Assembly (NCBI RefSeq): GCF_963675165.1
Contig: NC_087387.1
Coordinates: 4,304,990 to 4,368,989, forward strand
Reading direction: 5' to 3'
Length of the DNA: 64,000 nucleotides
DNA from: Halichondria panicea
Taxonomy: Eukaryota; Porifera; Demospongiae; Suberitida; Halichondriidae
Positions 33,101 to 62,100 of the stretch are shown here, piece after piece. Under the pieces are notes generated by a model. It made no database searches. It worked only from the letters and a program-made list of their open reading frames with translations, and was not told the origin of the DNA. How positions within the stretch are numbered: position 1 is the stretch's first letter; each line of letters starts with the position of its first letter. A program made the translations under genes and the position numbers.

Positions 33101-36100
33101 TGCGAGTCAAACTAGCTATAACTCGAGAAAGAAGCACATAAAAATCCAAGAGAACGTTGCTACTGTCTCTAAGAGATTAGATTTCGCCGCATTGCTTGAG
33201 CAGTTACAGCTGGAATACACACACACAGACAACGAACAGACGCATAATCAGCTTTTAAATTCCCGTATTCCTCGTGGGGCTACACCTCTAGGCATACACA
33301 TAGCTAGTCCATCTTACCTTAGTTTGACAGTTAACATCACAGTGTCCTTGAGAGGGAGTATCACCTTGGAGGAGATTGCCAGTGAGAAGATAACTAATCA
33401 GCTCAGAATTCCCAGAGAAAACAGCACAAAAAAGCATTGTCCACCCACCAGCTGTTTGCTCATTAACATCCACGGGCTGATGCTGCTGACTCTCGTACAT
33501 TAGGTACTTTACAGTGTTTAAGTCACCACCTCGACAAGATTCATGCAGTGGTGAAAATAGATAGTTGTCCAGAACAAGTGGGTCCACTTGCTGGGTGCCA
33601 ACAAGATACGTCACAATGTTCAAGTGTCCATTCAAAGCAGCACAATGCAGTGGTGTTTCACCATTGATAGATTTAGTTGCTGCATTGACTAGCCTATCTT
33701 CAATCAAGTACTTCAAACTGATTAAATCACCAGTAGCTGCTGCAGTGTGAAGAGCCGTGTTGCCTTCTCTATTAACAGCTAGAGGACTGCAACGAAACAC
33801 TTCAACTAGAAATCGTAGTTTAGTCCTTTCTCCATTAAACGCAGCAGAATGAACTTTTAAGCTTGCTACCTTCACCGAGGGAGGTGGTTCATTAGATTGT
33901 AGTTTCAGAGCACTCAAGTCTACATTAAAATCTTGTAGCATCTCTTCCTTGCCAGCACCAAAAGTGTCTACCTGTAGAAATATTGTTATAGTACGTGTCA
34001 GTGAAATAATCATGAGTTTACAGTAACTATTTTAAAGCGGTATCAGTATGTCTCCGGGTGCTAGTACGTTTGTATGTGTGTTTGAGAGATTGAAATAAAA
34101 AAAAAATTTTGGGTGCATATCTGTCCACTGAGACCTTGCTGACTCATATAATTTCAAAAATTCAAAATTTCTCAAACAGGAAGATGACTGATTTTCAGTC
34201 CATGTTATTTGTAAATGTAGTGCAGTCCAACCAAATTGGTTTACCGTACTTATTCCATTTAAAGCAACCCTCCAAATATGCGACACCCTCAATCTTTTCT
34301 AATTTTCTGACCACTAAAAGTAACGACTGCAGCGTTCACTTATTATGTCGCGTCCTAAATAGAGGTAAAACCACAGCCTCGATTCCAGGCCGCAAGAAAC
34401 AATGTAATTTAAGCTTCCTATAATCGAGGATAGTAGAGTAACTTCCAATTAGATGCGACCCTCTAAATATGCGACACCAGGACTTCAACATAATTTTTCA
34501 ACCTACAAAAGAAACGACCTCTGGCTTCGTAAAGTGTCGCTTTAAATCGAATAAGTACGGTAAATTTTGTCTTATGCTGTGTCTTATCATAGATAGAGTA
34601 GAGAGGGATTGGAAACGGAAGTACCCTCGAAGTACCATCCGTGTATCTCCGCGGTTTTAATCGAGGCTTACTTTTTAACACGAGGGCTAAACATGAATAA
34701 TTCATGAGAATTGTTTTGCTCTCTGTAAGAAGTCCACGAGCAGTTGTGCTGCTGAACATCAACTTTCTCTAATACTTGAGGCCATTATTTTGGGACACAG
34801 GACACTATTAATTTAGTTACACAGTCTTAGCTGTATCAAAGGTACTATAGGAACACAAGCATGAAAAAGCGCTCTGTGTACCTCTAGCTACTTCCCGACA
34901 ATCGAGATTATATTTTTTTCGTTTCCAATTGATACCTACTATCAGGGGGCATGTGATTCAGTAATGGGGGTAGCTCTGAGATGTATGCTTTGGACACAAT
35001 AAGTTTCCCGGGCTTTTGCGGGAGTTATGAGGAGATACACAGATGGTCCCAGAGCCACTAAGTAGACTTCAGTGTAAAACATCACGTGAATCACTTCCGT
35101 CAAATCCCTCTCTACTCTATCTATGGTCTTATTAATGCTGAGAAGAAATATTTTTATTATAGCTAAACACCTTAGAGCAGTAGTTATAGTTAAACACATT
35201 GGAATAGCAACCGGGGGTAGCTAGATGTCCGACCTTGAGAATCGAAAACAGTGAGTTAAAGATCTTTGGAGGCGCACCAACTCTCCCCGCACATTCCCAG
35301 TTGCATATTTTAATAACAGCCACATTATTGTAACTTGTTACAATGTTGGGCTATTGTGACTTAGAAAGTAAAAGAACAAAAGAATTGAATATAATTATAT
35401 ATATATTATCTCAGTTACGCATATAGTAGCCTCGATTCCAGGCCAATTAAAATACAGCCTGGTACCTATTGCAGGGGTGATAGTGCGCATGCGCTTCAAA
35501 TTACCCAGAATATGGGTAATCGTACTACGAACGTAAAACCTTAGTAAATTAAACCGGAAATTAGTCCGTTTACTAAGAATTATTATGTTCTGTAATACTT
35601 TATCTCTATGACTGAGTTCTGTGGCTTATGCTGTCTATTGCGTTGGTCTAGAAGGCTTGAACACTAGTTTTAAGACAGAAGAGGCTCTCATCTACGTCTA
35701 GGATGGTCCTATTATATAGCCGGGTTGTCTTCACAAGTAGCAGTTTGAGGCACCATACACTTCCCATAGCCTGTACAGATCCAAGGTAAGACATCCTGAC
35801 CATACAACCGTCATAGAGGTAGATGAGAGCCTCTTCTGGCTTCAGACTAGTGTGAATACCTTCTGAAACAACCAGAGCTAAGCTGATGTACAAAGATAGA
35901 AAATAAATGAGAGAAAGAAAAAAGGGGATTCCCCAGATTCTGGAGAATAAACTAACGCATGCGCACTATCACCATGCAATAGGTACCAGGCCGTATTTTA
36001 ATCGGCCTGGAATCGGGGCTACGCATATAGCTATAGAGGTTTAGAATTGTAGGAGGAATAATTCCTAAGTATGCTGTTTAGGCTTCAATTATACACTCTA

Positions 36101-39100
36101 GAATGCTAGTGGTATGCACAATAATCGTTTGCTTACTGCATAGTTAATTTCTGCGCCATTTTGTATTTAAGTTTTCCATGTGCTTTATGGGATCACATGA
36201 TCCTTTATTTTTGTTGTGATGCTCTTTATCATGTGGATACTGTGTAAAACTGCAGGGGCTGGGGGGTTGTGTTCTTTCAACCTCGTGGTTATATTGTGTT
36301 ATATTGGTAGCTGGTTGAGAGCAGCCATAAACTATGCCCACACTTTTGGACCACTAAGTATTTTGGTTATTCGGCATTTTTAACAAACTTATATTTTTTA
36401 TAAGATGTGTGTGAATGGGTTAGTTTTCTATTGGGAAATGCAAAATATTTTGGTTCTTATCTCCAGGCATTAAATAGATACCAGTGTGTGTGTGTGTGTA
36501 GACTGCTATATATACAGCTGCTCAAGGATCAATAAAGTGCAAATAAGAGTTTCTAGTCATGTTCTCTTGGATTTTAATTCTTGGATTTGCTAATTCGTTT
36601 CGCCTATAAAAGCAAAACTTGTAATTTTAGAGTGTTGCTACTCTACTTATAATTATATTATTATAGTTAGCTCTGCACTAGAATGCTAGCTATTGGTAGC
36701 TGCAAGAGGAGTGAGAAGAGAGCTGCAAGGCTCTGCTGATGCATTTTGACTTTTGGCAGCATCAATCATGGTCAATCATTTCCTGTGCATGCAGTAAAAA
36801 TTAATTAGCAATAGCTAGAGCTTTATGTTATGTAGCTTTGACACATCCACCGAGGCGTCAGCGCTTATAGTCTTGAGTCCCCATACAATTACCTCAGTAA
36901 GATATGATTTAATAGTCCGAGCTCCTCTCTTGCTTCTCTCAATCCCAGAGTCAGAATTAGAACGCTCTCCTTTTTTGTTGACTGTCGGGCCCTCTAAGAA
37001 ACGGTGCATTTGGAACGTCTCTAAGTAATCAGTAGCAGCAGATTTGTACTCAGAATGAAGAGTACTGGCCAATCCTTCATCAGAATCTGAGTGACCAATA
37101 CAATAGTGCACTTAATATTATAAGCATTCACTGAAATTTGTCCGCTGTATTATTACAATGTTTTGCTAACCAAAAACAATTAATCTCAGTACTACGAGAA
37201 ACATATGCTAACCTTGCTAACTATATACACGTACAAACAACACACTTAGACTACATTACATCATACTGTGTTTGGCTAAAAACAATAGATGGAAGCATAA
37301 TCTACAAGAAGGTACTTATTCTACAGGAAATGGACGCATATTCTACAGGAAGTGGACGCATATTCTACAGGAAGTGACAAATAATTTGCAGGAAGTTCTC
37401 AAAAGTTGGAACGAAATTTTTAGTGAATGTGACAAGAAGATGACAAAAACATTATAAAAAACACAGAATTCAATAGTTTGTTCAGTCACTATCCATTCTT
37501 TCCATGTCCACTGTTGCTTTGTATTGCTTTTTCCAGTTGGGCACGGGCAGGGGGGCCAGGAAGCATCAAAAATACTTTAGCAATCGCTTGACACTTTCTA
37601 TTGAGTTTTTTAAGGTTCCATGCTGGTCCAGTCTGCTCTATACCCCCCTCCACTCCACCACAGAGCTTCATTCTTCTTTTTGTAATTGCAGTCAGTTCTA
37701 AGTTCTTTTTACTTGTCTGTTCTTTCCAGTATCTTCAAAAAGCGTTTCACAAGCTCTACTAAGTTTTACTGTAGTTTTTCATTGTTTTGAAGCCGTCTTC
37801 TTGTCTTTTTCTGTCAACTGGTGTCTCTCACAGCTCTCCAGCTTGTCCAGCTCGCACAAATTCAATTTTTGTTGCTACGCACCAAACATGGCCTTTTATA
37901 ACCACGCCTTGCGCATGCGCAATGAAGTACAAGTTAAATAGACCACACCAACTCGTAGAATATGCGTCTTAGTAACCACCCGAGGGAATCTAACCGCAAC
38001 CGCGGAGGTTACATAAACGCATATTCTACTCTTAGGTGTAGTCTATCCTATACATATCCATTACCGCAACACTCCTGGGAAGGTGAGCCGGACCATGACT
38101 GATGACTGTTAATTATAGGATTAGGCATCCTCTCTAATTAATTACAGGAATACAACCCCGCAAGTTAATAATTATATTGCTCTCCTAATTAAGTACTTGG
38201 GGGTAAAGACGTGGCCTAGCCACCAGTCATAGCCCATCGGACGAATGTCCTACCCCCAAAGAATTGAAGACTAAGCCATGAACACATGTACAGATCAAGT
38301 GAGCGCTATATAAGGGTGCTGGGGAGGATTAACGAATATCTGATTAACCCCCTGCATTAGCACGTTGCATAACCAAAGAGAGTAGATTTTTTTTTATATT
38401 ATTATTTTTCACATTTTGTGGCATATCTTCTGAAGTAAAGGTGATATGATCTATTTGAGTGCAGGTAATGAAAGTTCAACTATTGGCGCTTCCATTGGAC
38501 CACCACCTGTTACATCATATGACATCATCACTATGAAATGGCTGTCTAAAGATGTGTACCTCCGAAAATATGTTAGGAATAGAAGTAGCTTATTTGTTTG
38601 AGTTAAGATCTGAAATTTGTTGTGTATGTACCTGAGTATATTGCTCATCTTTTGAGCTTCAACGGAAGTCTGGGCTACTAGTAAGTTCTGAGAAATACTG
38701 CATTTTGTTGTTTTTTGGTGGCAAATATGTTAGGAATACAACTTTCGATTTTATGCTAGTTAAGGTCTGATTTTTTAGGAAGGATGTACTACAATAGTGT
38801 AAAATTCATTTGCACTAACTTACAGGAGCTAGACAAGTCTCTTCTTTGCTAGAGCGGCCCTTCTTGTCAAAAAGGGTGATTTTGCTCTGCTACTTTTGCT
38901 GACGTATGCAATGATATTCATTGATTTGTGACATCACAAATCATCTTGTTGTTATTTGCTACATCCAAAGGTCATGTGATGTCTACCTGCAAATACACAG
39001 TTGGTATTGGTCATTCTGTGTCACAGGGGCGTGGCAATTGAGCCTTATACGTAGGCAAATCGCCCCAAAAGTCATAAAAAGCACTGTTTTTGACAAGATG

Positions 39101-42100
39101 GGCCGCTCTAGCAAAGAAGAGGCTAGCCTAACTCCTGTAAGTTAGTACAGATGAAAAGTACACTATTGTAGTACATGCTGCTCAAAAATCAGACCTTAAC
39201 TAATATAAAATCGAAAGTTGTATTCCTAACATATTTGCCACCAAAAAACAACAAAATGCAGTATTTCTCAGAACTTACTAGTAGCCCAGACTTCTGTTGA
39301 AGCTCAAAAGATGAGCAATATACTCAGGTACATGCACAACAAATTTCAGATCTTAACTCAACAAAATAAGCTACTTCTATTCCTAACATATTTTCGGAAG
39401 TACACATCTTCAGACAGCCATTTTATACTGATGATGTCATGTGATGTAACAGGTGGTGGTCCAATGGAAGCGCCAATAGTTGAACTTTAAGTACCTGCAC
39501 TCAAATAGATCATATCACTTTTACTTTAAAAGATATGCCACAAAATGTAAAAAATGTGTACCAAAAAAAAAAATCTACTCTCTTTGGTTGTTGCACTGTA
39601 TATAGGGATTGAGGCAAAGTAATAATCAATATTTGTACAATAGTAAGGTCCTCGACTGTGCTGATCCTATAGCGCTATGACCAGCCTAAATGTAAGCCCC
39701 CGGAAAGCGCATTACGAAATTGGGAGGTAAACTGGGGCAAATCGAGTACAGGGCAATGTGTGCTCACCGCGTGACTCCATGTCAGAGTGGATTAGCTACA
39801 GATATGTTTCGCTGTATAGCCACTCAGAGCATAATGTGAGCCAAGTCAGCGTCGTTATATATATTTTTACGAGAATATTTGCGTCTGTGTGGGATTGGGC
39901 AGTACCAGATCCTAGTAAGAAAGGCATTGCAGAGATTTTGGTCCAAGCAAGGGATGTCCAGTGTGGAGATCACGAGATATAGGTTATAATAATCAGGGAT
40001 TAGAAACGGGTTGAGGCTGTGCTGTAATTTAATAAATAAAATTCAAACTTCCTTTTAGACAGTAAACTTTCACTCTTGAAACAAGCTGTGCATGAGATAG
40101 GTTTATATAGTGGGCAAGATTCAGAGGGGGCCTTTCCTACTAGCTAAGTGTCTATTAATAAGTAGGAAAGGACTAGTCCTGCAGTTTATGTAAGAGTTAC
40201 TGGCAAATATGCTTATTCATCGTCTGACGTTACTGGCCCTATGTTGGTCCACCAGCAACATCAAACCACGAATAATGACCACGAAACTCTATCTAGTAAC
40301 CAATAATTCGTACTGACCCCACGAAGGTGCCAGATAATTCTGCGGCAAAAATGTCCCGGTGGTTTGCCTCGAATGCACGAGGTAGTACTGTAGTAAGGGT
40401 TATCGCAGCAGCTGAGTAAGCGCTATTATGGCTAGTGAGAATATCAAGAGTTGATGACTACTGCCATAGGTCGTCCACATTCGAGATGGGCCTCGCTATA
40501 ATTATTGTGTGTGTCAGTATTGCAGATTGCTAAGCCTGTGGTCAAATTCGATGCTGTTCTTCTAGGTGTACTATGCAGGAGGGAGGTGTTTGTTGGCCGA
40601 GCAGAATGTGTGATCCAAAATAAGTGTGGCCATGGGCAATGTATAGTATTGTGCCGGTGTGCTTGTTTAATGAGATATAGCAAGTGAGAAAGAGCGAATG
40701 CCTACTCTAGCGTTTGTGAGGGTTGCGCGGTGTTGTATGTATTCTAGATACTATGCTCTGCAATACGAAAATTACGAACTCGCACGCTAATTTGTTTAGT
40801 GCCATATACCTGCGGCGGCGGCGTGGTGTGGATTATGCGCTTCCTATGTCGTACTCGACAATCGAAAAGGCGTGTCGGCAGCGTGGGGAACGAGTACGGG
40901 GTTGATGCATGTGTCGTACATGTAACTTTTGAGTACGAGTAATGTAGGTGCTAAGCTAAGCTAAGTAAAATCAGCGGAGCTACAGAAACTTGAATGGTGC
41001 ATTTCGACACCTAATAGGCTGACATTACTCATTACCCTGCAGCGAAATAACATACGTGAAAACGTGGGCCTGTTGTGCAACTCAATCGAATCTTTCACAG
41101 TGTCTATTCGGAATATTTGGCACTTGGCGTGGGCAAATTATGCAATGGACTAATAATTAGGGCATGTCAAATGGTAGTCTCATGGATCAGCCGGACCTCA
41201 AGGAACGTCTGCACTCTTGATGTAGTTTTGTTGCGGGCGTAAGGTCAGGAATTGATTACATTCCATTGGTCTGGCACATTCCATTGTGAAACGACCTCAA
41301 GACAAGAGTGCTCAGACCCCTTCTTAGGAGGGGCTGATCCATGAGACTGAATTTAAGCATAGGGGCATTCTATAGACAAAAGCATGGCATAACACATAGC
41401 ATCAGTGGCAGATCCAGGGGAAGATCCCAGGGTGCCATGGATCCCCCCTTTCAGTCTAGCTATTGTAGCTTTACTACAGTTACCAGCTAGCTATTTATCA
41501 GTGTTTGTAGCCATTGTAATTTGATTCTATGATTGTACATGTTGTTTTGATGCATCAACTGCCAAAGGAGTGTTCAGGTTAGCCTAAGCTAGCTAGTTGA
41601 CTGTTCGTGGCAGCTAGCTAGCTCTACGCAAGTCTATTATGGGACTTCCCCTCTCTAGTAACGTGTGACCGGAAGTGGGCGTAACCCCAACAAATTTCGC
41701 GCTGCGCGCTCGTAGTTTGGCACCCCTCTTTCATCTTTCCTGGATCAATCACTGAGCATAGACCGTGCAATTAAGGTACCTGTGGGCATGTGTGTGTGTC
41801 GGGGGGGGGGGGGAGGCAAGAGCGAGCAGGGCTCGCAAATTTATTATGTTAATGGAGTATAAGGGCAGGACGGGGCAGTACAGTGTAAGCAGTATAGTAT
41901 AAGCAGGGCAGGGCAGTGTAATATAAGCCTTATGGGCACCGGGCAGGGGCAGAGCAGAGCAGTATACTATAGAGCACTGAGCAGTATTATTATTATAATG
42001 CCGTATGTCAAAGAGTGGGTATTGATCGAATGATTGTTCTTAAAAACGATCGATGCCAAAGTTCAAGTCTAAAATTAATGGCTGCCATCAGCAGAGCCTT

Positions 42101-45100
42101 GCAGCTCTCTTCTCACTCTTGCAGCTACCAATAGCTAGCGTTCTAGTGCAGAGCTAACTACTAAGTAGAGTAGCAACACTCGGTAAACAAGTTTTGCTAC
42201 GGACTCTTCTGAAAAGGCTGCAATGGCATTCCAAGTAAGCAAAACTAGGCATAACTTGAGAACAAAGCTTTATTTTGCAAATCCACAAATAAGTATCCAA
42301 GAATCATGACTAGAAGCCTATAGAAACTCTTACTTGTACTTCATTGATCCTTGAGCAGCTGTAGCAGTCTACACACACCCACAGCAGGGTATATGGCAGC
42401 GATAGCAGAGCATATGCGGGTGCACAAATAATAAAAGCAAATGAAAGCACCGCAGGTGCTGATGCCGAGCTATACACACATTATGATTATCATGATGAAC
42501 ATTAATTTTTGTGCATTTGCTGTATGCAAATTTGAGGAGTGGGTAATGATCTACTAATACCGTTGTTAAAAACGATTAAATTAATGGCTACTTCGGCATG
42601 GCTCTTTTCTCTTTGCTTACTTTCTTGAACAAATGAAAAAACTAAAAAACAACTTGAAAAACTGTGCATGCCTGGGGCTGTATGCTAATATTCTATATAT
42701 CCTACAGCTGTTGACCAATGAGATCAATTTGTGGTGACGTAAGTGTGGTATAATATTCTATATATCCTACAGTCGTTGACCAATGAGATCAATAATTAGT
42801 CGTGACGTAAGTGTGGTATAACTATAGAAACTCTTATTTGCACTTCATTGATTCTTGAGCATGTTGTAGCAGTCTACACAGATTCACACACAAACACACT
42901 ACCGTATATCTTCTAATTTATCAGACAGAAAAAAATAATTATTTTGGAAATTGTCCGGGTATAATTGGAACAGATTTTTATAGAGCATGCGAAGTGTCCG
43001 GAATAATTAGAACAAGCAAGCAGCTGCATGCGAGCTAGCTAGGTTTAATAGAACAAGGTACGACTGAATAGTTGCACTAACTTCTAAAACTAGCTACTCA
43101 AAGCTATCTAACTGCAGCACTCCAAGTCTTACTTGCCGTCTATGAATGGTAACTCAACTTTTCAAGGTATTGTCCGGATATTTAGAACAAATGTAATATT
43201 AAAGTACTGGAGTGTCCGTTGTATTAGAACAACGAAAATTGCCCAAAAGAGTGTCTGGGGTAATTAGAAGTGTCCGATAAATTAGAAGATATACGGTATA
43301 CTGCATACCTTGAGGTATAAAAATAGGCCTTGGGAAGATGTATTTGGGCGTTAAGGTGATATATTTTCGCCAGTATTAATTTCAGCTATTTCTGCGAATG
43401 AGAGTTAAATTGCAAAAATGTGTACTCGCAGATAATTAGAAAATGCAATGAATCACACTTTCGAGTACATAGATACGCTATGAATAACATTAATTTCACA
43501 ACTTGAGCAGAATTTAATTTAATTACCAGCTAAACAGTGAAAGCGCAAACAAATCTACCTGTGAAAATAATTATTATGTCACCTTAAGGTATACGAATTC
43601 GCCTTTTTTGGGCGAATTCCAATGCTGCATAATTTTATAAAACGCGAGCACATGAGTATTTTGTTGCAACAATGGTAGGTGGATTGTGAACACATTGTTA
43701 AAACATCAACATTAATTATACGTACGTTACATATAGATGCTGGTTGTGCTGTAACAGTTGCTGTAGGGCCTGTATACATATATATATATATATATATGTA
43801 TACAGGCCCTACAGATTCTTGTGCGTACATGCATGCTGTATCATGCTGATGGACTAACAATTATAGCAGAATCTCATAACACAAACCATCATAATTATTT
43901 TTAAATCATGGTAATTTTACTACGTATAATATGTAATTATATCTCTTAAAATCCCATCAGCAATACCATGACGAAGGTATAAATTATCTCACCTAAACTG
44001 GACCTGGATGTGTTATCACCTTTATCCGATCGACACTATAAAAGGGAGAATGAGACATAAGTATAGATACTATAACATATTGAAAAACATCAGCAGCTAT
44101 ATAAACATAAATTAAAAAAGGGCCGTAATATAAATTTACAATAAATACATGTACCTCAGCTTGATAATGCACATCTCCACATTGTAGCTGTAAGACCCCC
44201 TGACTATGCAGAGCATGTTCTTGATCAGTTGACAGTGGGAAAATGTCACTTGTTATGAAAGAGGGCAACAGAAATGTTAGCTCGATACAACCTTTACTGA
44301 TTTTAACAAGTTTTAAGACAGACTCGTTCAAATTTAAGATGGAGCATAGATTCCGTTTGAATAGCTTTAGTCGATTCAGTTCACAATCGTCGTACGTAGA
44401 ATCAAGTTTTACAATCATAGTGACGGTATCTTCTCTGGAATCTGAACTAATATTTTCAGTCACTGGACGTACTCGTCGTTTAGCATACTCCATAAAATTG
44501 GCTTTGTAGAGTTTCATCTTCTCTTTGTCCTCGGCTGTCCCTAAAATGTCTGTAATCTGATCAACCATTTCATAGTCAAAGAAGGAGAAATAGTCGGCAA
44601 TAATTAACCAAATTCCTGCAACAGTTGAACATTTCCCAAGTTTCTCTCTTTGATTCCTGAAAACACAATCATTTGTTTTGCCAAAAACCTTCTTTATAGA
44701 GTTAAACCCCATCAAGCAAGCAACCAAAGAGTCTTTATCAATTCTTCGAACTTCAAGTGACTGGCACAGCTGTGACACAAATTTGTTGAATAGCGTTTCC
44801 ATTTCCATCGAATCTACTTCTAACTCTCCCATACTTGGAGATATAGAGACTACTTCACTGATTGCACCTGCATACATAGTAGTGTGTGTTTACATGCTAG
44901 ACTAAACAATCATGCTATACACTGTAATTATTGTTAAAACCAGCTATACAAAATCACATATCACCAAGCATACATGTAGACTGGCGGCAACAGCCCCTCG
45001 CGTGCGTAGCGCGAGGGACTGGCAAACTGCCTATCAGTCACTCGTCTCAGCTGCAACGAGCATTGCAGCCTATCAGAATGCTCAACGTCATATTAGCCCT

Positions 45101-46415
45101 GTAATTGTAACCGCACTTACACTTCAGGGGATTCAGTGCATTTCATAGTAGCTAAATCTCGTAGCAATATTTAACCACATTATCTATATGATATTCATGT
45201 TTGGTAGTGTCATATGATCTATACACTTCCGCTGAGACGAGTGACTGATAGACAGTTGGCCAGTCGCTCGCGCTACGCGCTCGGGCGGCGCCGCCAGTCT
45301 AGCATACATGCACCCTTCTTATGGCCAAATATATAATCACCATCCAATGACTCAGTGGATGACTCCGAGTCAGTTTGTGTAGTGCTGTTTTGAGCTCTCT
45401 GTATGTATGGAGTATAGGGATTAAAATTGTGTGCAGTACATACAATTCCACTAAAACTATAGCATGGTTACGTACAATGCACACTGATTGCCAGATTGTT
45501 TGACTATAATTATATAATCTGCTAACTATATACAGTGAATTAATTTACCTCAAGTCTTTCTGAGACTCTCTCCAGACCTGTATAAACATGCGATACAAAT
45601 ATAATTATATCTATATAGTATGCAGATTGACTACTGTTCATCAACTTACTTTGATAAGATCCCTCTATTGCTTCAGCTACATCATTTCTTGCCACAGTAG
45701 AGTTCCTGAGAGCAGTACACATACCTCCCCAAGTTAGAGGATCACCTGACTGCAGTCGACGAGCTAGGGCCTCACGCAAACACACATCATTGTCACCACG
45801 ATACTTATCATGAAAGTTGGTTAAGTCGGTATAGCTCAGCTTCAACGCAAGTCCCAGGTTGAACCAGTTCGGACTAGCACTCCTCACCTTCTCATACACC
45901 TCAAGTATGTCAGAGATAGTCAGAACAGTATCTGCATTACAATGATAATTCTATAGTGAAATATATAACATCAGGAAGCACATACCCAGTCCAGGTCCAG
46001 GGTTTAGCTCTATATCCCCGGCCAATAACAGGAGAAGAGAGACGAAGACAAGTAATGCTCCTATTAAGATCAGGGTGAGGCCAATACAAATACTTGAAGA
46101 ATTATTGCGGATATGGTTAGTCGTGAAAGTCACTGATTCTTTTTTCTTTTCAGAAACCACATCTTTATGACAGTTACTGGGAGGAGCTTTGTCTGTTGCA
46201 TTATTTAGTACTGATTCAACGACACACTTATCACGATGGCTGGTAGTATCGTCAGCCTGGAGGGTGCAATACTGCGTCCACAACACCTTTGTGACTATGA
46301 TAGTAACATCATACTGTAGCTTCTGGTGAGCCAGGGAAGCTTTACGTGGCCGCCCTCCTCTTCCACCATTGAACAACCCAATACGAGCTCTCCACAACTC
46401 CACACCAATACCCAT
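84..46415 (-). CDS. 2A-Death-ankyrin repeat receptor-like gene, 31 exons seen, 3' end outside window
   Basis: Gene model built by hand from splice signals and phase. Eight 5' exons (46415-45986, 45931-45650, 45577-45549, 45398-45341, 44867-44155, 44035-43993, 37086-36893, 33971-33318) join without a frame break into 801 codons; 23 single ankyrin-repeat exons then add 760 codons. Domain order: N-terminal region, membrane segment (about 109-132), 2A-like motif (134-141), Death-like domain (144-237), acidic linker, an unnamed domain (267-504), basic linker, about four ankyrin repeats (from about 640), then 23 further repeats. Ankyrin repeats bind proteins and Death domains recruit signalling partners, so a cytoplasmic sensor or adaptor role is inferred. 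The last exon (84-182) still has a GTGAGT donor, so more exons follow to the left. The array could be spread over more than one transcript; RNA evidence is needed to confirm joining of all exons. Confidence 0.72.
237..335 (-). CDS. Ankyrin cassette exon 22 (type B)
   Basis: 33 codons, phase 0-0, donor GTGGGT. Opens DGETALWAASFNGHK. The base at 263 differs from the twin at 24137 and changes Gly to Arg in T-A-(G/R)-A-I-V-D, the only coding difference noticed between the two copies. Confidence 0.85.
531..952. mobile_element. MITE with TACTTGATTAAACGCC ends
   Basis: Terminal inverted repeats of about 25 bp: taccgtatttacttgatt at the left and its complement (one mismatch) at the right. AAACGCC recurs inside. 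No coding capacity. A second copy lies at 24405-24826 as part of the large duplication. Confidence 0.85.
1606..1704 (-). CDS. Ankyrin cassette exon 21 (type B)
   Basis: 33 codons, phase 0-0, donor GTGGGT. Opens DGMTALLVASFYGHK. Identical to cassette 4. Confidence 0.85.
1836..1934 (-). CDS. Ankyrin cassette exon 20 (type C)
   Basis: 33 codons, phase 0-0, donor GTAGGC. Opens QGSTALHSASGKGHL. Identical to cassette 3. Confidence 0.85.
2581..2679 (-). CDS. Ankyrin cassette exon 19 (type A)
   Basis: 33 codons, phase 0-0, acceptor ttttttcag, donor GTGAGT. Opens GGFTPLMIASQEGYL. In the left copy of the 5.27 kb duplication (twin of cassette 2). Confidence 0.85.
3158..3686. mobile_element. MITE with TTGCCCAG ends, copy 1
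   Basis: Left end gttattgcccag, right end ctgggcaacaag. It holds internal palindromes, including one around gggccgcaggccc. Related copies: 8878-11025 (interrupted by the mariner-like element), 17062-17452 (inverted) and 27032-27560 (duplication). Confidence 0.8.
3960..4160. repeat. Degenerate short tandem repeats (AACCTTGTTGCAACC-like)
   Basis: Repeated ggttgaaaccaccttgttgc-type units with inverted echoes (caaggttgctgcaaccttg). No coding signal. The duplicate is at 27834-28034. Confidence 0.6.
4748..5103. mobile_element. pogo/Tigger-like MITE, copy 1
   Basis: TIRs cagtagactctcg... and ...cgagagtctactg, flanked by TA on both sides (TA target duplication of the Tc1/mariner/pogo type). No transposase. 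Relatives at 11775-12125, 28622-28977 and 52649-53063; a degraded copy at about 55800-56000. Confidence 0.85.
5431..5530 (+). pseudogene. Helitron helicase N-terminal fragment
   Basis: The frame reads A-I-N-L-P-Q-D-V-V-S-F-E-Q-F-L-P-R-L-P-G, matching the I-N-L-P-Q-D-V-x-S-F motif found N-terminal to Helitron_like_N (DUF6570-type region) in animal Helitrons. Only about 30 codons survive; no start or downstream helicase. Confidence 0.65.
5861..7912. mobile_element. Foldback transposon, 2.04 kb, with minisatellite arms and 8-bp target duplication
   Basis: Element 5869-7904 flanked by CAATTGCT at 5861-5868 and 7905-7912. The outer about 76 bp of each end (ggttattactttgtgtaaat inward) are inverted repeats. 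Inside them both arms are tandem arrays of an 8-9 bp unit, GAGAAC plus a 2-3 base spacer: pyrimidine-strand orientation at about 5946-6396 and 6463-6549, purine-strand orientation at about 6552-7828. A 65-bp unique patch lies at 6397-6462. Long TIRs built from tandem repeats are the hallmark of foldback elements (Drosophila FB, sea urchin TU). No transposase is encoded; the long open frames here are by-products of the repeat. Confidence 0.88.
7916..8014 (-). CDS. Ankyrin cassette exon 18 (type A')
   Basis: 33 codons, phase 0-0, acceptor tttttacag, donor GTGAGC. Opens NGFTPLMAAAQNGHL. The foldback element 5869-7904 sits three bases into the downstream intron; its target duplication supplies donor bases from +4. 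Confidence 0.82.
8513..8611 (-). CDS. Ankyrin cassette exon 17 (type A')
   Basis: 33 codons, phase 0-0, acceptor attttcag. Opens NDVTPLMVAAYKGHL. The donor reads GTGGTT rather than GTGAGT as in its relatives, so this exon may splice poorly or be skipped. Confidence 0.75.
9062..10923. mobile_element. Palindromic mariner-like element, copy 1, with a nested insertion
   Basis: Starts cagtgcaacaaccaaagag, ends with the complement ...ggttgttgcactg, flanked by TA (9060-9061, 10924-10925). Arms of about 500 bp are inverted copies of each other. It is inserted inside a TTGCCCAG MITE. A foreign stretch of about 624 bp (10071-10694) interrupts the right arm. No transposase frame. Confidence 0.85.
10071..10694. 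mobile_element. Nested element in the mariner-like arm
   Basis: Absent from the second family copy (38361-39598), where aataagc runs straight into tacttctattcc. It begins ttataccacacttacgtcac and ends ...ggtgtggtatatcctata, so it has ATACCACAC inverted ends. It contains a strong hairpin (10577-10672, tatcctccgctaccgtggtt and complement). Related ends lie at 42680-42835 and 37890-38055. A 60-codon ORF inside (10227-10409) resembles nothing I know. Confidence 0.75.
11241..11339 (-). CDS. Ankyrin cassette exon 16 (type A)
   Basis: 33 codons, phase 0-0, acceptor ttttttcag, donor GTGAGT. Opens NGVNPLMIATLEGHL and ends A-Q-L-N-S-Q-T-K. Confidence 0.86.
11775..12125. mobile_element. pogo/Tigger-like MITE, copy 2
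   Basis: Same family as 4748-5103, TIRs cagtagactctcg and cgagagtctactg, right flank TA. Confidence 0.85.
12284..12798. mobile_element. TAGCCTCGATTCCAGGCC-type element with 10-bp target duplication
   Basis: Flanked by AATCTGTAGC at 12274-12283 and 12799-12808. The right end is ...ggcctggaatcgaggct; the left end is degraded (tagcctcc). The paralogous locus near 29131 (ttaatctatagctagaac) lacks the element and shows the empty site. 9-11 bp duplications are typical of Mutator-like elements; the family assignment is inference. Confidence 0.82.
12908..13009 (-). CDS. Ankyrin cassette exon 15 (type C, 34 codons)
   Basis: 102 nt instead of 99, still phase 0-0, acceptor ggttaacag, donor GTAAGT. Opens ELGDTALLWASDKGHT, one residue longer than the other type C cassettes at the repeat start. 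A second AG six bases into the exon would break the frame, so the longer form is preferred. Confidence 0.78.
13010..15363. other. Intron of the ankyrin gene: duplicated non-coding sequence
   Basis: No exon seen. 13230-13440 recurs at 21975-22190 and 29550-29740; 13560-14330 recurs at 21170-21960; 14470-14900 recurs at 15661-16100, 23158-23600 and in part at 31020-31190. A short gcaccgc/gatgcctcg-type repeat fragment lies at about 13850-13910. Confidence 0.6.
15235..15633. repeat. 400-bp duplicated block with two cassettes, copy 1
   Basis: Matches 19079-19477 almost base for base, from cttctacctagctagctgc through cassette 14 into cassette 13. Separately, 15664-16440 matches 23158-23940, and 13560-14330 matches 21170-21960, so this stretch is a mosaic of short duplications. 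Confidence 0.85.
15364..15462 (-). CDS. Ankyrin cassette exon 14 (type A')
   Basis: 33 codons, phase 0-0, acceptor ttctcacag, donor GTGAGT. Opens NGTTPLMVAAQEGHL and ends A-Q-V-N-K-Q-N-N. Twin of cassette 9. Confidence 0.86.
15565..15663 (-). CDS. Ankyrin cassette exon 13 (type B)
   Basis: 33 codons, phase 0-0, acceptor cttatag, donor GTGGGT. Opens GGQTALWTASFNGHK and ends I-V-D-L-P-M-T. Confidence 0.85.
16470..16568 (-). CDS. Ankyrin cassette exon 12 (type A)
   Basis: 33 codons, phase 0-0, acceptor ttttttcag, donor GTGAGT. Opens NGTNPLMIASQKGHL and ends A-Q-L-N-S-Q-N-K. Only about 50 nt separate it from cassette 11, a very short intron. Confidence 0.86.
16621..16719 (-). CDS. Ankyrin cassette exon 11 (type B)
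   Basis: 33 codons, phase 0-0, acceptor ctaatag, donor GTGGGT. Opens DGKTALWIASSIGLK; the canonical G-H is G-L here. Confidence 0.82.
17062..17452. mobile_element. MITE with TTGCCCAG ends, inverted copy
   Basis: Opposite orientation to 3158-3686. It starts tgttgcccagtgagtgg and ends ctgggcaataac. It lies next to the truncated ankyrin remnant at 17516-17549. Confidence 0.8.
17516..17549 (-). pseudogene. Truncated ankyrin cassette (type A' remnant)
   Basis: Acceptor and first codons of a type A' exon survive (tttttcag then D-G-V-T-D-F-S-H-V-A), with S-H replacing the usual P-L-M region. The rest of the exon and its donor are missing; the sequence runs into DNA next to the MITE at 17062-17452. 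A dead repeat unit in the array. Confidence 0.6.
17630..17728 (-). CDS. Ankyrin cassette exon 10 (type B)
   Basis: 33 codons, phase 0-0, acceptor taaatag, donor GTGGGT. Opens AGETAFWAASFKGRT; the G-H hallmark is replaced by G-R. A truncated type A' remnant lies next to it at 17516-17549. Confidence 0.82.
18781..18940 (+). pseudogene. Helitron N-terminal (R-L-A-R-R-R-E-R) debris
   Basis: Two frames carry copies of the E-x-R-L-A-R-R-R-E-R motif (K-Q-E-R-L-A-R-R-R-E-R, then R-E-S-R-L-A-R-R-R-E-R-R) separated by a frameshift and stop. Such Arg-rich repeats occur at the N terminus of Helitron replicase proteins. A related stretch on the opposite strand is at 21020-21085. Confidence 0.5.
19079..19477. 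repeat. 400-bp duplicated block with two cassettes, copy 2
   Basis: Second copy of 15235-15633. Its left edge abuts Helitron-like coding debris (about 18781-18940), and another Helitron fragment lies at 20477-20875 on its right. Confidence 0.85.
19209..19307 (-). CDS. Ankyrin cassette exon 9 (type A')
   Basis: 33 codons, phase 0-0, acceptor ttctcacag, donor GTGAGT. Opens NGTTPLMVAAQEGHL and appears identical to cassette 14, within the block 19079-19477 = 15235-15633. Confidence 0.86.
19410..19508 (-). CDS. Ankyrin cassette exon 8 (type B)
   Basis: 33 codons, phase 0-0, acceptor ttaatag, donor GTGGGT. Opens DGRAALLEASFNGHK. Its 3' two thirds are part of a block copied from or to 15235-15633; the 5' end differs from cassette 13, so the duplication edge falls inside the exon. 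Confidence 0.84.
19871..19969 (-). CDS. Ankyrin cassette exon 7 (type C)
   Basis: 33 codons, phase 0-0, acceptor gattaacag, donor GTAAGT. Opens KGATALHLASHEGHL and ends D-V-H-V-Q-E-Q. One of the least degenerate type C repeats (T-A-L-H-L-A). Confidence 0.86.
19970..23957. other. Intron of the ankyrin gene: repeats and Helitron debris
   Basis: No ankyrin exon found. It holds the Helitron fragment 20477-20875, copies of the 13.2-14.3 kb block, 22270-22800 (recurs at 30040-30660) and 23158-23940 (copy of 15664-16440). The short frames at 22450-22712 are conserved only because the whole block is duplicated. Confidence 0.6.
20477..20875 (-). pseudogene. Helitron helicase fragment (DUF6570/Helitron_like_N region)
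   Basis: A 132-codon open frame. The strongest segment is V-V-P-I-M-S-I-Y-G-L-P-L-G-Q followed by Y-A-G-H-V-I-N-L-P-Q-D-V-V-S-F-A and S-A-E-L-D-A-L, a good match to the region before the Helitron replicase domain. No Rep or helicase motifs follow, so it is a remnant. The flanking sequence 20401-20520 recurs at 38047-38160. Confidence 0.68.
23958..24056 (-). CDS. Ankyrin cassette exon 6 (type A)
   Basis: 33 codons, phase 0-0, acceptor ttttttcag, donor GTGAGT. Opens NGTNPLMIASQVGHL and ends S-Q-L-N-S-Q-N-K. Twin of cassette 23. Confidence 0.86.
24111..24209 (-). CDS. Ankyrin cassette exon 5 (type B)
   Basis: 33 codons, phase 0-0, acceptor ttaatag, donor GTGGGT. Opens DGETALWAASFNGHK; keeps the usual Gly in T-A-G-A-I-V-D, whereas its twin (cassette 22) has Arg there. 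Confidence 0.86.
24405..24826. mobile_element. MITE with TACTTGATTAAACGCC ends, duplicate
   Basis: Copy of 531-952 carried by the segmental duplication. Confidence 0.85.
25480..25578 (-). CDS. Ankyrin cassette exon 4 (type B)
   Basis: 33 codons, phase 0-0, acceptor cattag, donor GTGGGT. Opens DGMTALLVASFYGHK and ends A-G-A-I-V-D-L-P-N-T. Twin of cassette 21. Confidence 0.85.
25710..25808 (-). CDS. Ankyrin cassette exon 3 (type C)
   Basis: 33 codons, phase 0-0, acceptor ggttaacag, donor GTAGGC. Opens QGSTALHSASGKGHL and ends D-S-G-A-G-V-N-I-Q-T-Q. Twin of cassette 20 in the left copy of the duplication. Confidence 0.85.
26455..26553 (-). CDS. Ankyrin cassette exon 2 (type A)
   Basis: 33 codons, phase 0-0, acceptor ttttttcag, donor GTGAGT. 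Opens GGFTPLMIASQEGYL. Part of the right copy of the 5.27 kb duplication; twin of cassette 19. Confidence 0.85.
28622..28977. mobile_element. pogo/Tigger-like MITE, duplicate
   Basis: Copy of 4748-5103 within the segmental duplication. Confidence 0.85.
29239..29337 (-). CDS. Ankyrin cassette exon 1 (type C)
   Basis: 33 codons, phase 0-0, acceptor ctgattatag, donor GTAAGT. Opens EGATALYWASYKGHT and ends with D-S-G-A-D-V-N-G-H-N-Q. Lies just right of the 5.27 kb duplicated block and is homologous to cassette 15 (12908-13009). Confidence 0.85.
29338..33317. other. Intron between first ankyrin block and cassettes
   Basis: Contains copies of blocks from 13.2 kb and 22.3 kb, the 31546-32281 element and a 31355/32284 direct repeat. 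A short tandem of atgtcag lies near 32956-32983. No exon with ankyrin features seen. Confidence 0.6.
31546..32281. mobile_element. TAGCCTCGATTCCAGGCC-type element, 0.74 kb
   Basis: Ends tagcctcgattccaggccg and its complement at the right; subterminal ATACCTTGTATGCGCATG is also inverted. The flanks contain a separate direct repeat (31355-31460 = 32284-32390, gtcagccccaaaacgatacg), so it sits between two copies of a short duplication. Confidence 0.8.
33318..33971 (-). CDS. Exon 8: first ankyrin block (about four repeats)
   Basis: 654 nt (218 codons), phase 0 on both sides, acceptor tttctacag and donor GTAAGA. After about 55 residues of cap (V-D-T-F-G-A-G-K-E-E and onward) come N-R-E-G-N-T-A-L-H-T-A-A-A-T-G-D, then I-N-G-E-T-P-L-H-C-A-A-L-N-G-H, then F-S-P-L-H-E-S-C-R-G-G-D, then G-G-W-T-M-L-F-C-A-V-F-S-G. 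These are ankyrin repeats with the T-P-L-H and G-H/G-D hallmarks, the later ones more diverged and with longer loops. Unlike the downstream cassettes, these repeats share one exon, so this part of the receptor cannot be varied by single-exon skipping. Confidence 0.85.
34240..34564. mobile_element. MITE with TTTACCGTACTTATTC ends
   Basis: Inverted ends tttaccgtacttattcc / ataagtacggtaaa with further GCGACAC echoes. It holds a fragment of the CTCGATTCCAGGCC family (34378-34395). Lies in the intron just upstream of the first ankyrin block. Confidence 0.75.
34588..35125. mobile_element. MITE with CATAGATAGAGTAGAGAGGGA ends, 7-bp target duplication
   Basis: Inverted ends catagatagagtagagaggg and complement; GTCTTAT duplicated at 34581-34587 and 35126-35132. 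Related element at 56979-57655. Confidence 0.8.
35427..36020. mobile_element. TAGCCTCGATTCCAGGCC-type element with perfect 10-bp target duplication
   Basis: Flanked by ACGCATATAG at 35417-35426 and 36021-36030. Inverted ends cover tagcctcgattccaggcc and continue through aattaaaatac and ctggtacctattgca for about 65 bp. No coding capacity. Confidence 0.88.
36893..37086 (-). CDS. Exon 7: charged linker
   Basis: 194 nt between acceptor ggtcactcag and donor GTAATT, entered in phase 1 and left in phase 0, so it bridges exon 6 and exon 8 in frame. It codes a polar segment opening D-S-D-E-G-L-A-S-T-L-H-S-E-Y-K and including G-E-R-S-N-S-D-S-G-I-E-R-S-K-R, ending K-S-Y-L-T-E. No family recognised; likely a disordered, possibly phosphorylated linker before the ankyrin region. 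It lies within a 10 kb stretch otherwise made of repeats. Confidence 0.62.
38361..39598. mobile_element. Palindromic mariner-like element, copy 2 (without the nested insertion)
   Basis: Same inverted arms as 9062-10923. The right end ...ggttgttgcactg is followed by TA; the left end is degraded. About 1.24 kb, equal to copy 1 minus its nested insert. Confidence 0.83.
41176..41348. mobile_element. Short palindromic MITE (173 bp)
   Basis: Ends agtctcatggatcagcc and its exact complement; echoes of GACCTCAAG and GCACTCTTG inside. No coding sequence. Confidence 0.8.
42902..43296. mobile_element. MITE with CCGTATATCTTCTAATTTATC ends, TA flanked
   Basis: About 26-bp inverted ends, then several copies of a gtccg..ataattagaac motif in both orientations. 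Flanked by TA at 42900-42901 and 43297-43298. Confidence 0.82.
43761..43814. repeat. Perfect 54-bp hairpin with an AT core
   Basis: ctgtagggcctgtataca, then an alternating TA core, then the exact complement. A cruciform-prone site 180 bp from exon 6. Confidence 0.9.
43993..44035 (-). CDS. Exon 6: short polar linker
   Basis: 43 nt between acceptor ttttatag and donor GTGAGA, entered in phase 0 and left in phase 1: C-R-S-D-K-G-D-N-T-S-R-S-S-L. The phase-1 exit does not fit the ankyrin exon at 33971, which needs phase 0, and this pointed to the intervening exon 7. If the 119-nt intron before it is retained, the reading frame stays open through a hydrophobic stretch and stops within this exon. 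Confidence 0.55.
44155..44867 (-). CDS. Exon 5: unnamed domain between Death and ankyrin regions
   Basis: 713 nt, entered in phase 1 after tatgcag and left in phase 0 at a GTACAT donor; about 237 codons. Notable stretches: L-F-N-K-F-V-S-Q-L-C-Q-S-L near the start; G-I-W-L-I-I-A-D-Y-F-S-F-F-D-Y-E-M-V-D; K-L-Y-K-A-N-F-M-E-Y-A-K-R-R-V; and near the end K-G-C-I-E-L-T-F-L-L-P-S-F followed by I-F-P-L-S and a Gln/Leu strand. From memory, similar blocks occur in sponge Death/ankyrin proteins, but I cannot give a family name. The alternation of amphipathic helices and a late beta-type segment suggests a folded module of about 200 residues. Function unknown. Confidence 0.72.
44977..45300. mobile_element. 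Intronic element with GACTGGCGGC ends and perfect 10-bp target duplication
   Basis: AGCATACATG at 44967-44976 and 45301-45310. Inverted ends about 80 bp (tagactggcggc; actgcctatcagtcactcgt) with a GC-rich gcgcgaggg segment. Lies between exons 4 and 5, 40 bp from the exon 4 donor. No ORF. Confidence 0.88.
45341..45398 (-). CDS. Exon 4: Ser/Thr-rich linker
   Basis: 58 nt from acceptor ccatacatacag to donor GTGATT, entered in phase 0 and left in phase 1. It codes R-A-Q-N-S-T-T-Q-T-D-S-E-S-S-T-E-S-L-D, a flexible, acidic, phosphorylatable linker. A transposon with a 10-bp target duplication (44977-45300) lies just downstream in the next intron. The phase fit with exons 3 and 5 is the main support. 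Confidence 0.62.
45549..45577 (-). CDS. Exon 3: 29-nt linker microexon
   Basis: Acceptor tttatacag and donor GTAAAT enclose 29 nt that continue the phase-1 codon of exon 2 and end in phase 0 (S-L-E-R-V-S-E-R-L-E). It works only together with exon 4: the two add 87 nt, exactly 29 codons, and return the frame to phase 1 for exon 5. Skipping both would also keep the frame (exon 2 joins exon 5 directly), so a paired cassette is possible. Charged, probably helical linker. Confidence 0.6.
45650..45931 (-). CDS. Exon 2: Death-like domain
   Basis: 94 codons, phase 1 at both ends, acceptor after ttgtaatgcag and donor GTAAGT. It opens DTVLTISDILEVYEKV and contains W-F-N-L-G-L-A-L-K-L-S, a spaced acidic/Leu helix, R-R-L-Q-S-G-D-P-L-T-W and a closing A-L-R-N-S-T-V-A helix. 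This is the six-helix Death-domain pattern with the conserved W and L-G-x-x-L core. Death domains form homotypic complexes that pass signals to kinases or caspases. Symmetric phase makes the exon removable without loss of frame. Placed immediately after the 2A motif, it would be the N-terminal domain of the released downstream product. Confidence 0.78.
45986..46415 (-). CDS. Exon 1: N-terminal domain, membrane segment and 2A-like peptide
   Basis: Codes 143 residues plus one base. The ATG at 46415-46413 has A at -3 and G at +4, a favourable context. The chain opens MGIGVELWRARIGLF, followed by a Gly/Arg-rich stretch (17-26). It contains Cys50, Cys64 and Cys82 and possible glycosylation sites at Asn72 and Asn105. 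Residues about 109-132 are strongly hydrophobic (membrane segment) and run directly into GDIELNPGP (133-141). The donor GTATGT follows codon 143 in phase 1. I see no classical cleaved signal peptide at the extreme N terminus. If the 2A motif works, the upstream product ends at Gly140, eight residues after the membrane segment, like a tail-anchored protein. The N-terminal region itself I do not recognise with confidence. Confidence 0.8.
45993..46016 (-). other. 2A-like ribosome-skipping motif (DIELNPGP)
   Basis: Residues 134-141 of the exon 1 frame read D-I-E-L-N-P-G-P, an exact match to the 2A consensus D-(V/I)-E-x-N-P-G-P. In known 2A sequences the Gly-Pro peptide bond is not formed, the nascent chain is released after Gly, and translation resumes at Pro. 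Here the break would lie between Gly140 and Pro141, just before exon 2 and the Death-like domain. The residues before the motif are a leucine run (about 127-131), as in several cellular 2A-like sequences that follow a hydrophobic segment. Activity is inferred from motif identity only; upstream context strongly affects efficiency. Confidence 0.85.
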
Positions 46416-46950: not shown

Positions 46951-47922
<972 letters not shown>

Positions 47923-58458: not shown

Positions 58459-59152
58459 TGATGATTATATTTATATTTATTACGTAGCTGTGAGTAAAGG
58501 CCCTCAAGCTCTATATAAACCAGGCCAATAACTGTTAGTTGTGGCACAAATTTCCATGTATAATAACTACTTTTGTTGCCGTGCAGACAACCAGGAGCTT
58601 TCTATATCTCAGATAGGCTGAGATTGTACACAAAGACTATATCTAGCTGATCACTCCCTTCTCGTCTTGATCTTGCTGCAGTTTTATGTATTATAATGTG
58701 TTAGTTTATAATCTCTACATGCAGGCTTGCCTTCAGCATTACTAAGTCAGTGCTACGTACATCATGTATTTTGTCCTTAATGCTGTAAAATCATAATTAT
58801 TTATGAATAGCTAGTAGGTAAACAAAACGATTAAGTATCTAAACAGTGAGCTATATTCTGGCTTAAATCTATAAACAAGCTAGTTCTCCGTAGCTAAAAT
58901 AGCTTGTATCTATATGCAATAGAAAACCAACTGGGTCGAAAAGTTAATTACGACATCATTATTAAGAGGCGTGGCTTCCGGTTCAACAGATGTTGGCACT
59001 ACGCGGCAAAAATAATAACACCTCTAAACCCCCTATATACCCAAAATCCTAGCAAGGTAAATATGCCATAATTTTTATGCCAAATATATAATTTCACTGC
59101 ATTTCTTTGATCCCAGAGGTCAAAAGGTACCCATGTTTAATACTACTGTTGT
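58459..59152. other. Upstream region of the kinase-SNARE gene
   Basis: AT-rich; no repeat element or exon recognised. Presumably contains the promoter, but I see no clear core motif. Confidence 0.4.
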
Positions 59153-62100
59153 ATGATGAGTGACAGACATCGCATTGAGATTATTGTGAATAATTTTGTC
59201 CACAGATACTCTTCGTGTATAACCATGGAAACTGAAGCTGTTGAAGAAGTTGGATTCAAGGAAATAACAATTTTTGAAGACGAAATCGGAGCGGGTGCAT
59301 ATGGATCTGTGCACATGGCCATCTGTGACAAACTGTTGTGTGCCGCAAAGAGGATCTATAGAATTTTAGTGCAACCTTCTCAAGCCACTCCTAGTAGAAA
59401 TGAGCATCGAATTCCAATTCGAAGGTTTGAAGCTGAGTTTAAATTTTTACAAGAAATACGTCACCCAAACATCATTCAGTATCTTGGGATGTACACAGAT
59501 CCATCAACACACCTCCCCATATTGCTGATGGAACTAATGGACGAAAGTCTGACACAATACCTCGAAGGGTCCACTCAACCCATTGCCTATTACATCCAAG
59601 TCAACATCTGCCTCGATATCATGAGAGCCCTCTCGTTTCTCCACGTCAATGAAATTGTTCACAGAGATCTTTCAAGTAACAACATTCTTTTGGCTGGAAA
59701 GTCTCGACATGCTAAGTTATCAGATTTTGGAATGGCAAAATTTCTGAATACCAAAATGTCACGTGTGTCAAACACAGCCGTTCCTGGTACAGAAGTGTAC
59801 ATGCCACCAGAAGCTTTTGGGGACGATTTCAAAGAGAGTGGAGATATCTTTTCATTTGCAGTTCTCCTCATACAAATTCTGACGCAAAAGTTTCCGAAAC
59901 CACAGGGAAAGCTCGAAGACAGAATAGTTGGCAATGAAAAGATCAAAGCCCTTGTGAAAGAATTGGAGCGTAGAAACAACCACATTTCTCTGATTCCACA
60001 TGATCATTCTCTCTTACCTATTGCTCTAGATTGCCTCAAAGATGAGGAGGCCGATCGGCCACTGGCTAGTAACCTCTGTGACAGGCTTGCGTCGCTCACC
60101 GAAACGAAACTGTACACTGAGAGCAAAACAACCGAAGAGAAACCACAGAGTATCACGGAAGAAAAGTGTGTGGGTACTACTGAGTGTGAAACAGAAGAGA
60201 AGGCCATTGGCACCGACAACTTCGATTTACAACTACTTGATTATGTGCATGTAAAGGACGAAGTAAAAGAAAAATTGACACGCACTGAGCAGCTTCTGGT
60301 ACAGAGTAAACAGGCTCTAGAAGAGAGTGAACAGAAAATTTTAGCAATGAAAGATCAGCTCGAAGCAAAAGAAAAAGTGTTGGGAAAAGAAATTGAACAA
60401 AACAACAATCTCATTGAAACTCAACAAAAAATTCAAGAGACGCTCCAAGGAACTGAAAATGAGCTCCAGAGCATTTCAAGTGCTAAGACTGAACTTGAAG
60501 AAAAACTGAGAAACTTGAAGCAAGAAATTGAACAGCACCAGCAAACTCTCATTGAGCAGCAAAAGCAAATCGATTTACATTATGAGAAAATCACTGAGCA
60601 GAATGAACAATTGGCTACTCACATTGGGAAAATCAATGAACAAGAGCAACATATCAAAGAACAGAATGTTCAATATACTACTCACCTTGAAAAGATGAGT
60701 GAGAAAGAAGAGCAAATTAAAGGGCTGCAAATTCAACTTGAACAGCAGTCTAGTGTTAATGACAACTTAATATCAGAGTTATCCTCTATCAAAGACTCTT
60801 TCAACAACAAAAAAAGCCGACAGCAAAACAAAGCAGCCGAAAAACAACCAATTGAGAACTCATCAAAAGCTTCAAAAACTGGTGCAGACAAAGAGTCGTT
60901 CTTTACAAAGATGAAAAAAACTTTAATTGGTGGTAACAAAGATGAAGAAGTCAAGCTCGAGGAATTCGAAGAGATAACTGCGACTAAGGTCAACGACTCC
61001 ACACAGCAGAAGCTCGATGCTAGCAAGAAACAACCAGAAACTGCAGTTCCTACTAACGAAGCCACACTGCCAAAGCTCGATATAGACCTCCCACCAAATT
61101 CTACTCAGGCCACCTTACCAAATGTTGACTTTGAAGGATTGAAGCAAACTGCCGAGATACACCATGATTCTGGAATCACTAAAGATGTAATGGAAAAGTG
61201 GAATAGAGTTGATGATAACGATCAAGAAACTGCACCTGATACGTTTACATCACGAGCCGAACAAGTTCGAACCAAAGCAGCAGTTAACAGAATTGAAACC
61301 TCCAGTGATAAGTCTGTAGCCACCTTGACTGATGCTCATCGGATTGGTATGTTAACAAATCAAGCTCTTCTGCATCAAGGTGCCTCCATTGACAAAACTG
61401 AAAGGCTACAAGAACAGATACAAACTGATCTGAAAGCAAGTGTTATTCCACTCCCACCGGTCGAAACATTGCGTGATACTGATACACAGCTCAAACTACC
61501 GCCAAAGTCTCGAGGACTTTTCAGTGGATGGTTTGGTTCAAAAAAAGAGGAAATTAAAGAATCTTCTGCATCTAAGCAATCTGTTAGCCACAGAGATAAA
61601 CTGTCTAGCAAATCAAAAGTGGAGATTCCACCAACCAGATCTCAATCAAATCCATTTGACGAAGAGACAATTAGGGAAGCAAAATCTGAAGAGATGAAAT
61701 TTCGTGAACAATCGGCGATTCAACGGATGGAGGAATCTTCAGCAAGATCGGTGAATACTCTTGTTGCAACAAATGCAATGGGTGTTTCAACTTTAGTAGA
61801 ACTCGAGCAACAATCTGAACAACTACACCATATCGAACGAGATCATGAGCAGATGCGGGATGATCTTACGAGTGGAAGAGATAATATAGAAACGATCAAA
61901 TCACCTTTTGGCTCGCGACCCAGAAAGGAACCTGGTAGGAAATCCAGTAAGGGTCAATCGTCCCAAACCCCACTGCCTAAATCGAAACCACCAAGCTCTA
62001 AGGACAGGCCACAACACACCACAACACAACTTCACCAATGCCCAAGCACAGGTAGCGCACTAGTCGATGCTAACTTGGATAAAATGAGTGAAGTGCTGTC

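Follow-up and report, generated by a model that had tools for sequence, protein, structure and literature searches.

The window analyzed here is a 64,000-nucleotide stretch of the genome of the sponge Halichondria panicea (NC_087387.1, positions 4,304,990 to 4,368,989), and its reverse strand carries a predicted gene in which a 2A-like (StopGo) ribosome-skipping motif lies just ahead of a Death-type domain. Known chiefly from viruses, such a motif allows a ribosome to let go of a first protein and then continue into another. The coding part of predicted exon 1 (45986..46415, (-)) opens at an ATG (46415-46413) with A at -3 and G at +4. As the original prediction stated, the frame stays open for 140 residues from the ATG to the Gly of the motif (frame end, ...SLLLLLAGDIELNPG), and Pro and a further 7 nt follow. 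The exact core DIELNPGP, also predicted, was found at 46016-45993 (-) (AGDIELNPGP with the two preceding residues); it conforms to the 2A/StopGo pattern D(V/I)ExNPGP, and skipping would be expected between the Gly and the final Pro. The most hydrophobic 19-residue window of exon 1 (46023..46079, (-); Kyte-Doolittle mean 3.06), a predicted membrane segment, ends two residues before the Asp. Such a segment had been placed before the motif as a separate neighbor; the position was right and the separateness was not, since its leucine-rich end is the upstream part used by this class of 2A. The upstream hexapeptide LLLLAG (p6-p11; 46017..46034, (-)) is leucine-rich and ends in (A/S/C)G, as in the class defined in PMC12846837. 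The window gene has an N-terminal 2A fused with a hydrophobic targeting segment, which is the arrangement of sea urchin NLR genes.

Predicted intron 1 (45932..45985, (-)) has 54 nt with GT-AG borders and is in phase 1; its donor lies 7 nt past the Pro codon, and with the acceptor before 45931 the frame is re-established, in agreement with the junction proposed earlier (45986 to 45931). Predicted exon 2 (45650..45931, (-); 3' end placed by eye) encodes the Death-like domain that had been expected there. Its family profile matched PIDD (4.9e-05) and FADD (1e-03) among PDB sequences, and the AlphaFold2 model reached a predicted local distance difference test score (pLDDT) of 93. The top Foldseek matches were FADD death domains with a TM-score of ~0.65, with no match at E <= 0.001, and the nearest folds were the death domains of FADD, RIPK1, and ankyrin (TM-score ~0.6-0.7, all E > 0.001). 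Profile and model together point to a six-helix death fold related to FADD/PIDD. Pfam Death was detected in 13 of 23 aligned family members at E <= 0.1, the window member itself being undetected.

Further along the same strand lies a conserved exon (44161..44865, (-)) whose unnamed domain bears the working label UPA-like, which is not a family assignment; this 298-amino-acid exon had no Pfam or PDB-sequence match, and its model had a pLDDT of 70. An ankyrin-repeat exon (33378..33968, (-); Pfam Ank_4, 2.5e-26) lies within an open reading frame at 33288-34031, ~12 kb downstream of the Death exon, and the parts of the gene are separated by ~10 kb of mostly repeat-like sequence. The presumed intron ahead of the ankyrin exon seems by eye to hold a large inverted repeat (foldback element) at ~38380-39600.

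The pattern D(V/I/M)ExNPGP, degenerate at the second position, was searched for in the whole genome (131,455,214 bases) and occurred at 116 sites, while the reversed-pattern control gave 0. Base composition predicts 0.11 matches per genome and ~5e-05 per 64 kb, against the 116 in the genome and the one in the window; a chance motif is ruled out by these counts. The sequence was read at 42 of the 116 sites, and class labels for the remaining sites were deduced from their motif DNA, their position, and the tallies. A leucine-rich hexapeptide ending in (A/S/C)G, by our own criterion, precedes the core at 37 of the 42 read sites.

Association with Death exons was counted against the 150 best-scored of 565 candidate exons and is therefore a lower bound; read loci of family A2 (described below) contain Death exons absent from these 150. 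For at least 53 of the 116 motif sites, a listed Death exon lies no more than 1.5 kb downstream on the same strand, so that the motif search upstream of Death/ankyrin genes suggested by the original prediction was positive in this genome. Conversely, the motif lies within 1.5 kb upstream on the same strand at 54 of the 150 exons (strand-flipped control, 0). The 2A module before Death exons is common, not universal.

The motif sites fall into several families. Family A1 comprises the window site, three sites on contig C11, and one each on C4, C3, and C12; family A2 comprises 19 sites on C5, C10, C6, and C13. The two share the N-terminal signature M..xVELWRARIGL, and ~98-138 residues precede the motif. 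Family B differs in its upstream part, which is followed by Death; the codon pattern assigns 45 sites to it, 41 of them on C14, and eight were read. In families A1, A1', A2, and B, each of the 23 loci read has a GT exactly 7 nt past the Pro codon and a downstream Death exon with a phase-1 acceptor; the A1 introns are 48-54 nt long. Because donor offset and acceptor phase match throughout, families on several contigs share one 2A exon design. The 7-nt offset was not seen in the families on C10/C12, C16/C17, C7, C1, and C2. At locus L012 (C4:6778790-6786800), two Death exons and the unnamed exon in two copies come after a single 2A exon, which looks like a duplication behind one 2A.

This exon design bears on the possibility that exon 1 is transcribed separately from the Death exon, or is usually bypassed by an alternative start, so that the motif rarely meets Death. 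Many Death exons do lack a listed motif upstream, as such a scenario would allow, but the short A1 introns and the matched phase-1 donors and acceptors at every read locus of four families make it very improbable. About equally improbable is a functionless leftover of a captured 2A-bearing retroelement lacking long terminal repeats (non-LTR). Such elements do occur in the genome: of the 42 sites read, five resemble CR1-like non-LTR elements, and both of those tested (L021, L026) encode PHD, endonuclease, and reverse transcriptase after the 2A. However, no reverse transcriptase or endonuclease frame follows the motif among the window open reading frames listed, and the common intron position with a Death exon after the motif recurs in families on several contigs. 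That the window gene itself is a retroelement piece is rejected, since the frames listed after the motif include no PHD, endonuclease, or reverse transcriptase; the rejection does not extend to a distant origin.

The ankyrin exon probably belongs to the same gene, as originally predicted, because its paralogues mostly have the motif upstream. Among the 20 best of 178 matches to this exon, 15 have the motif within 25 kb upstream on the same strand (control, 0); one of these (C5:2951806) is doubtful, as another gene copy lies between, which leaves 14. The motif-to-ankyrin distances range from 2.8 to 22.7 kb, with the intervening sequence read in part. That the ankyrin exon is unrelated to the Death exon is made unlikely by these 14-15 paralogues. 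The motif also lies within 10 kb upstream at 20 of the 29 best matches to the unnamed exon (control, 0). NACHT exons, of which 102 of 265 candidates were scored, have the motif within 4 kb upstream in 11 cases (control, 0). Among the NACHT exons listed, one follows the motif within 4 kb at at least eight of the 45 family B sites (seven on C14, one on C6) and others at three further motif sites on C1 and C15; at L052, the NACHT domain after the 2A has E = 9e-21. The window gene has Death and, instead of NACHT, ankyrin, with no NACHT nearby among the 102 listed of the 265 candidates.

The first 105 residues of exon 1, with the hydrophobic segment and the 2A left out of the query, identified 29 homologues in the genome, and the exact motif follows within 500 bp in 26 of them. 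The remaining three were read, and all are decayed: L031 has GDVESNHGP amid stops, L050 has GDVESNLEP with frame breaks, and L049 is frameshifted through the hydrophobic segment. Among these 29 homologues, the motif is lost only in decaying copies. In nine upstream proteins (A1, A2, C15, C1), the invariant columns are M1, W8, R9, G13, L14, R19, I118, and three leucines, together with the 2A residues G, D, E, N, P, G, and P, and they cluster in the 2A. Retention of the canonical motif thus extends across a gene family, within a shared spliced module before Death exons.

These observations also bear on the reading that the segment is a signal anchor only, the 2A core being inactive and the receptor simply membrane-bound. 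The hydrophobic window is strong, and membrane-bound NLRs have been proposed for sponges from transmembrane segments in a recent study (PMC12909245). However, a plain anchor has no need of D(V/I)ExNPGP, the octapeptide is kept in all but the three decayed homologues of the 29, and the invariant columns are concentrated in the 2A. We regard this reading as unlikely, albeit less so than the two alternatives above.

Several results weigh against an active, selected 2A. A homologue at C13:4030740 has an in-frame stop and yet keeps the motif, and retention alone is therefore not proof of function. The rest of exon 1 shows weak selection: in five independent pairs, with the eight motif codons excluded, the proportion of non-synonymous differences (pN) was 0.084 vs 0.125 for synonymous ones (pS) (Fisher p = 0.02), and the ratio of non-synonymous to synonymous substitution rates (dN/dS) over the whole of exon 1 was 0.65 in A1 and 0.43 in A2. 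The upstream part of family B gave 0.63. The dN/dS of 0.14 for the last nine A1 codons is in part circular, the motif having served to choose most loci. Moreover, a listed upstream motif is absent from 96 of the 150 best-scored Death exons. Reading-frame length was dropped as evidence, since exon lengths divisible by three follow from the frame extraction.

On balance, we think it likely that the window holds a host Death-ankyrin gene whose N-terminal 2A (StopGo) element is active and under selection. Most ribosomes would release after NPG, and one mRNA would yield two proteins. The first would be a 140-residue protein with a hydrophobic segment ending nine residues from its C-terminus. Because this segment would still be in the exit tunnel at the skip decision, it would be inserted post-translationally, like that of a tail-anchored protein; general reasoning on tail anchors and the exit tunnel underlies this expected fate. 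The second product would be a cytosolic Death protein starting with Pro-Gly-Leu-Asp, with the Death domain three residues on, and, speculatively, a Pro/N-degron is possible for such a product. Ribosomes that failed to skip would expose the hydrophobic segment to the signal recognition particle and deliver the fusion to the endoplasmic reticulum (ER). One mRNA would in this way split a death-fold receptor between compartments, as we infer from reporters that showed the same for a sea urchin NLR 2A signal sequence. For the unskipped fusion, the exocytic pathway is more likely than a cytosol-facing tethered sensor, because basic residues precede the segment, to which the positive-inside rule applies, and because the sea urchin result points the same way.

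More tentatively, and with rather less than even confidence, we suggest that this lineage uses StopGo as a standard module at the N-terminus of death-fold immune-type receptors, perhaps in at least 90 genes of several architectures. Both products would be functional, one being a tail-anchored protein with its own conserved N-terminal signature and the other a Pro-starting cytosolic receptor, and a change in skipping would alter the proportions of free and ER-routed receptor. Translational stress or an attack on elongation might then shift these proportions, and the 'membrane-bound' NLR models of sponges are perhaps unrecognized cases. The genome has 116 exact motifs, no fewer than 53 of which lie closely upstream of a Death exon, and this suggests a common host device in immune-type genes of some animals. 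If this is true, the sea urchin case would be part of a wider pattern, the predicted membrane segments in sponge NLR models would have a testable reason, and translation itself would set the destination of a receptor in a natural system.

Other arrangements of the 2A were observed in the genome. Loci L034, L036, and L052 (C14) and L053 (C2) represent two 2A families with different cores and a common further-upstream stretch (PVVDLSWTG.FPC.LGWRGSAL...), possibly an extra exon with its own hydrophobic segment. CARD-like helical sequences were noted by eye after the 2A at L053 and L025 (C2:7744905-7837796, 11 motif sites) and at L048 (C7); these sequences had no Pfam CARD match. At L041, L042, and L043 (C10, C12), the junction is intronless, and the 2A is followed by a conserved LxELTNPxxFGKxLGIP stretch that appears Death-like by eye. 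At L045, L046, and L047 (C16:2730885, C16:2740084, C17:4085157), the 2A stands between a long, partly hydrophobic upstream frame and a Death-less frame; two of these loci gave no Pfam match, and L047 gave a sub-threshold bZIP match. Elsewhere in the window, a long (CA)n microsatellite that is open in several frames occupies ~47400-47900, ~1 kb upstream of exon 1, and a single-exon frame of 1032 amino acids (59141-62239, (+)) encodes a protein kinase domain at its N-terminus (Pfam Pkinase, 2.2e-38), with a long tail that resembles a coiled coil.

The 2A sequences of eukaryotes and viruses were reportedly surveyed in a systematic way in 2025 (Rao et al., Cell Rep), and that survey may already list such genes. 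Likewise, 2A-bearing non-LTR retrotransposons are said to have been treated by Odon et al. in 2013. They have the same core motif, and such elements are present here (L021, L026); in the window gene, by contrast, the motif is followed by a Death exon and by no PHD, endonuclease, or reverse transcriptase. No report of 2A elements in sponge genes was found among the literature matches listed, which is weak evidence of absence; a '2A-like' match in a sponge long non-coding RNA paper proved to be a gene name.

Upstream classes that are rich in leucine and end in (A/S/C)G have been described by Li et al. 2026 (PMC12846837); one of them, motif 6, showed activity in lysate. The window gene resembles viral StopGo/2A motif classes 2 and 6 in its core octapeptide, its leucine-rich hexapeptide ending in (A/S/C)G, and D at p12; in contrast, it belongs to a repeated host gene family and not to a viral polyprotein, and its p15 is L. 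In the sponge Dysidea avara, NLR models with transmembrane segments were presented in 2026 (PMC12909245), and H. panicea is similar in its large Death and NACHT repertoires and in the hydrophobic segment of its receptor models. That paper's main text contains no '2A-like', 'NPGP', or 'ribosom'; the transmembrane segments of sponge NLR models may be 2A elements.

The original prediction mentioned 2A-like sequences in some animal non-LTR retrotransposons and in sea urchin NLR genes and could name no Death-plus-ankyrin gene with this layout. A near precedent exists in the sea urchin, where NLR genes carry 2A signal sequences at the N-terminus. A sea urchin NLR 2A skips at ~80%, and the unskipped fusion enters the exocytic pathway (Roulston et al. 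2016, PMC4981915). As in the window gene, that 2A lies at or near the N-terminus, doubles as a hydrophobic targeting segment, and stands before Death-type receptors (PMC4981915), and at least eight of the 45 family B sites here have the same 2A-Death-NACHT order. In contrast, the upstream part has 26 residues in the sea urchin and ~98-138 with a conserved N-terminus in A1 and A2, which also have an intron right after the 2A and the Death-ankyrin architecture. The principle is thus known from the sea urchin, and what appears to be new here, with some uncertainty as to priority, is its scale, the Death-ankyrin architecture, the long upstream protein, and the phylum.

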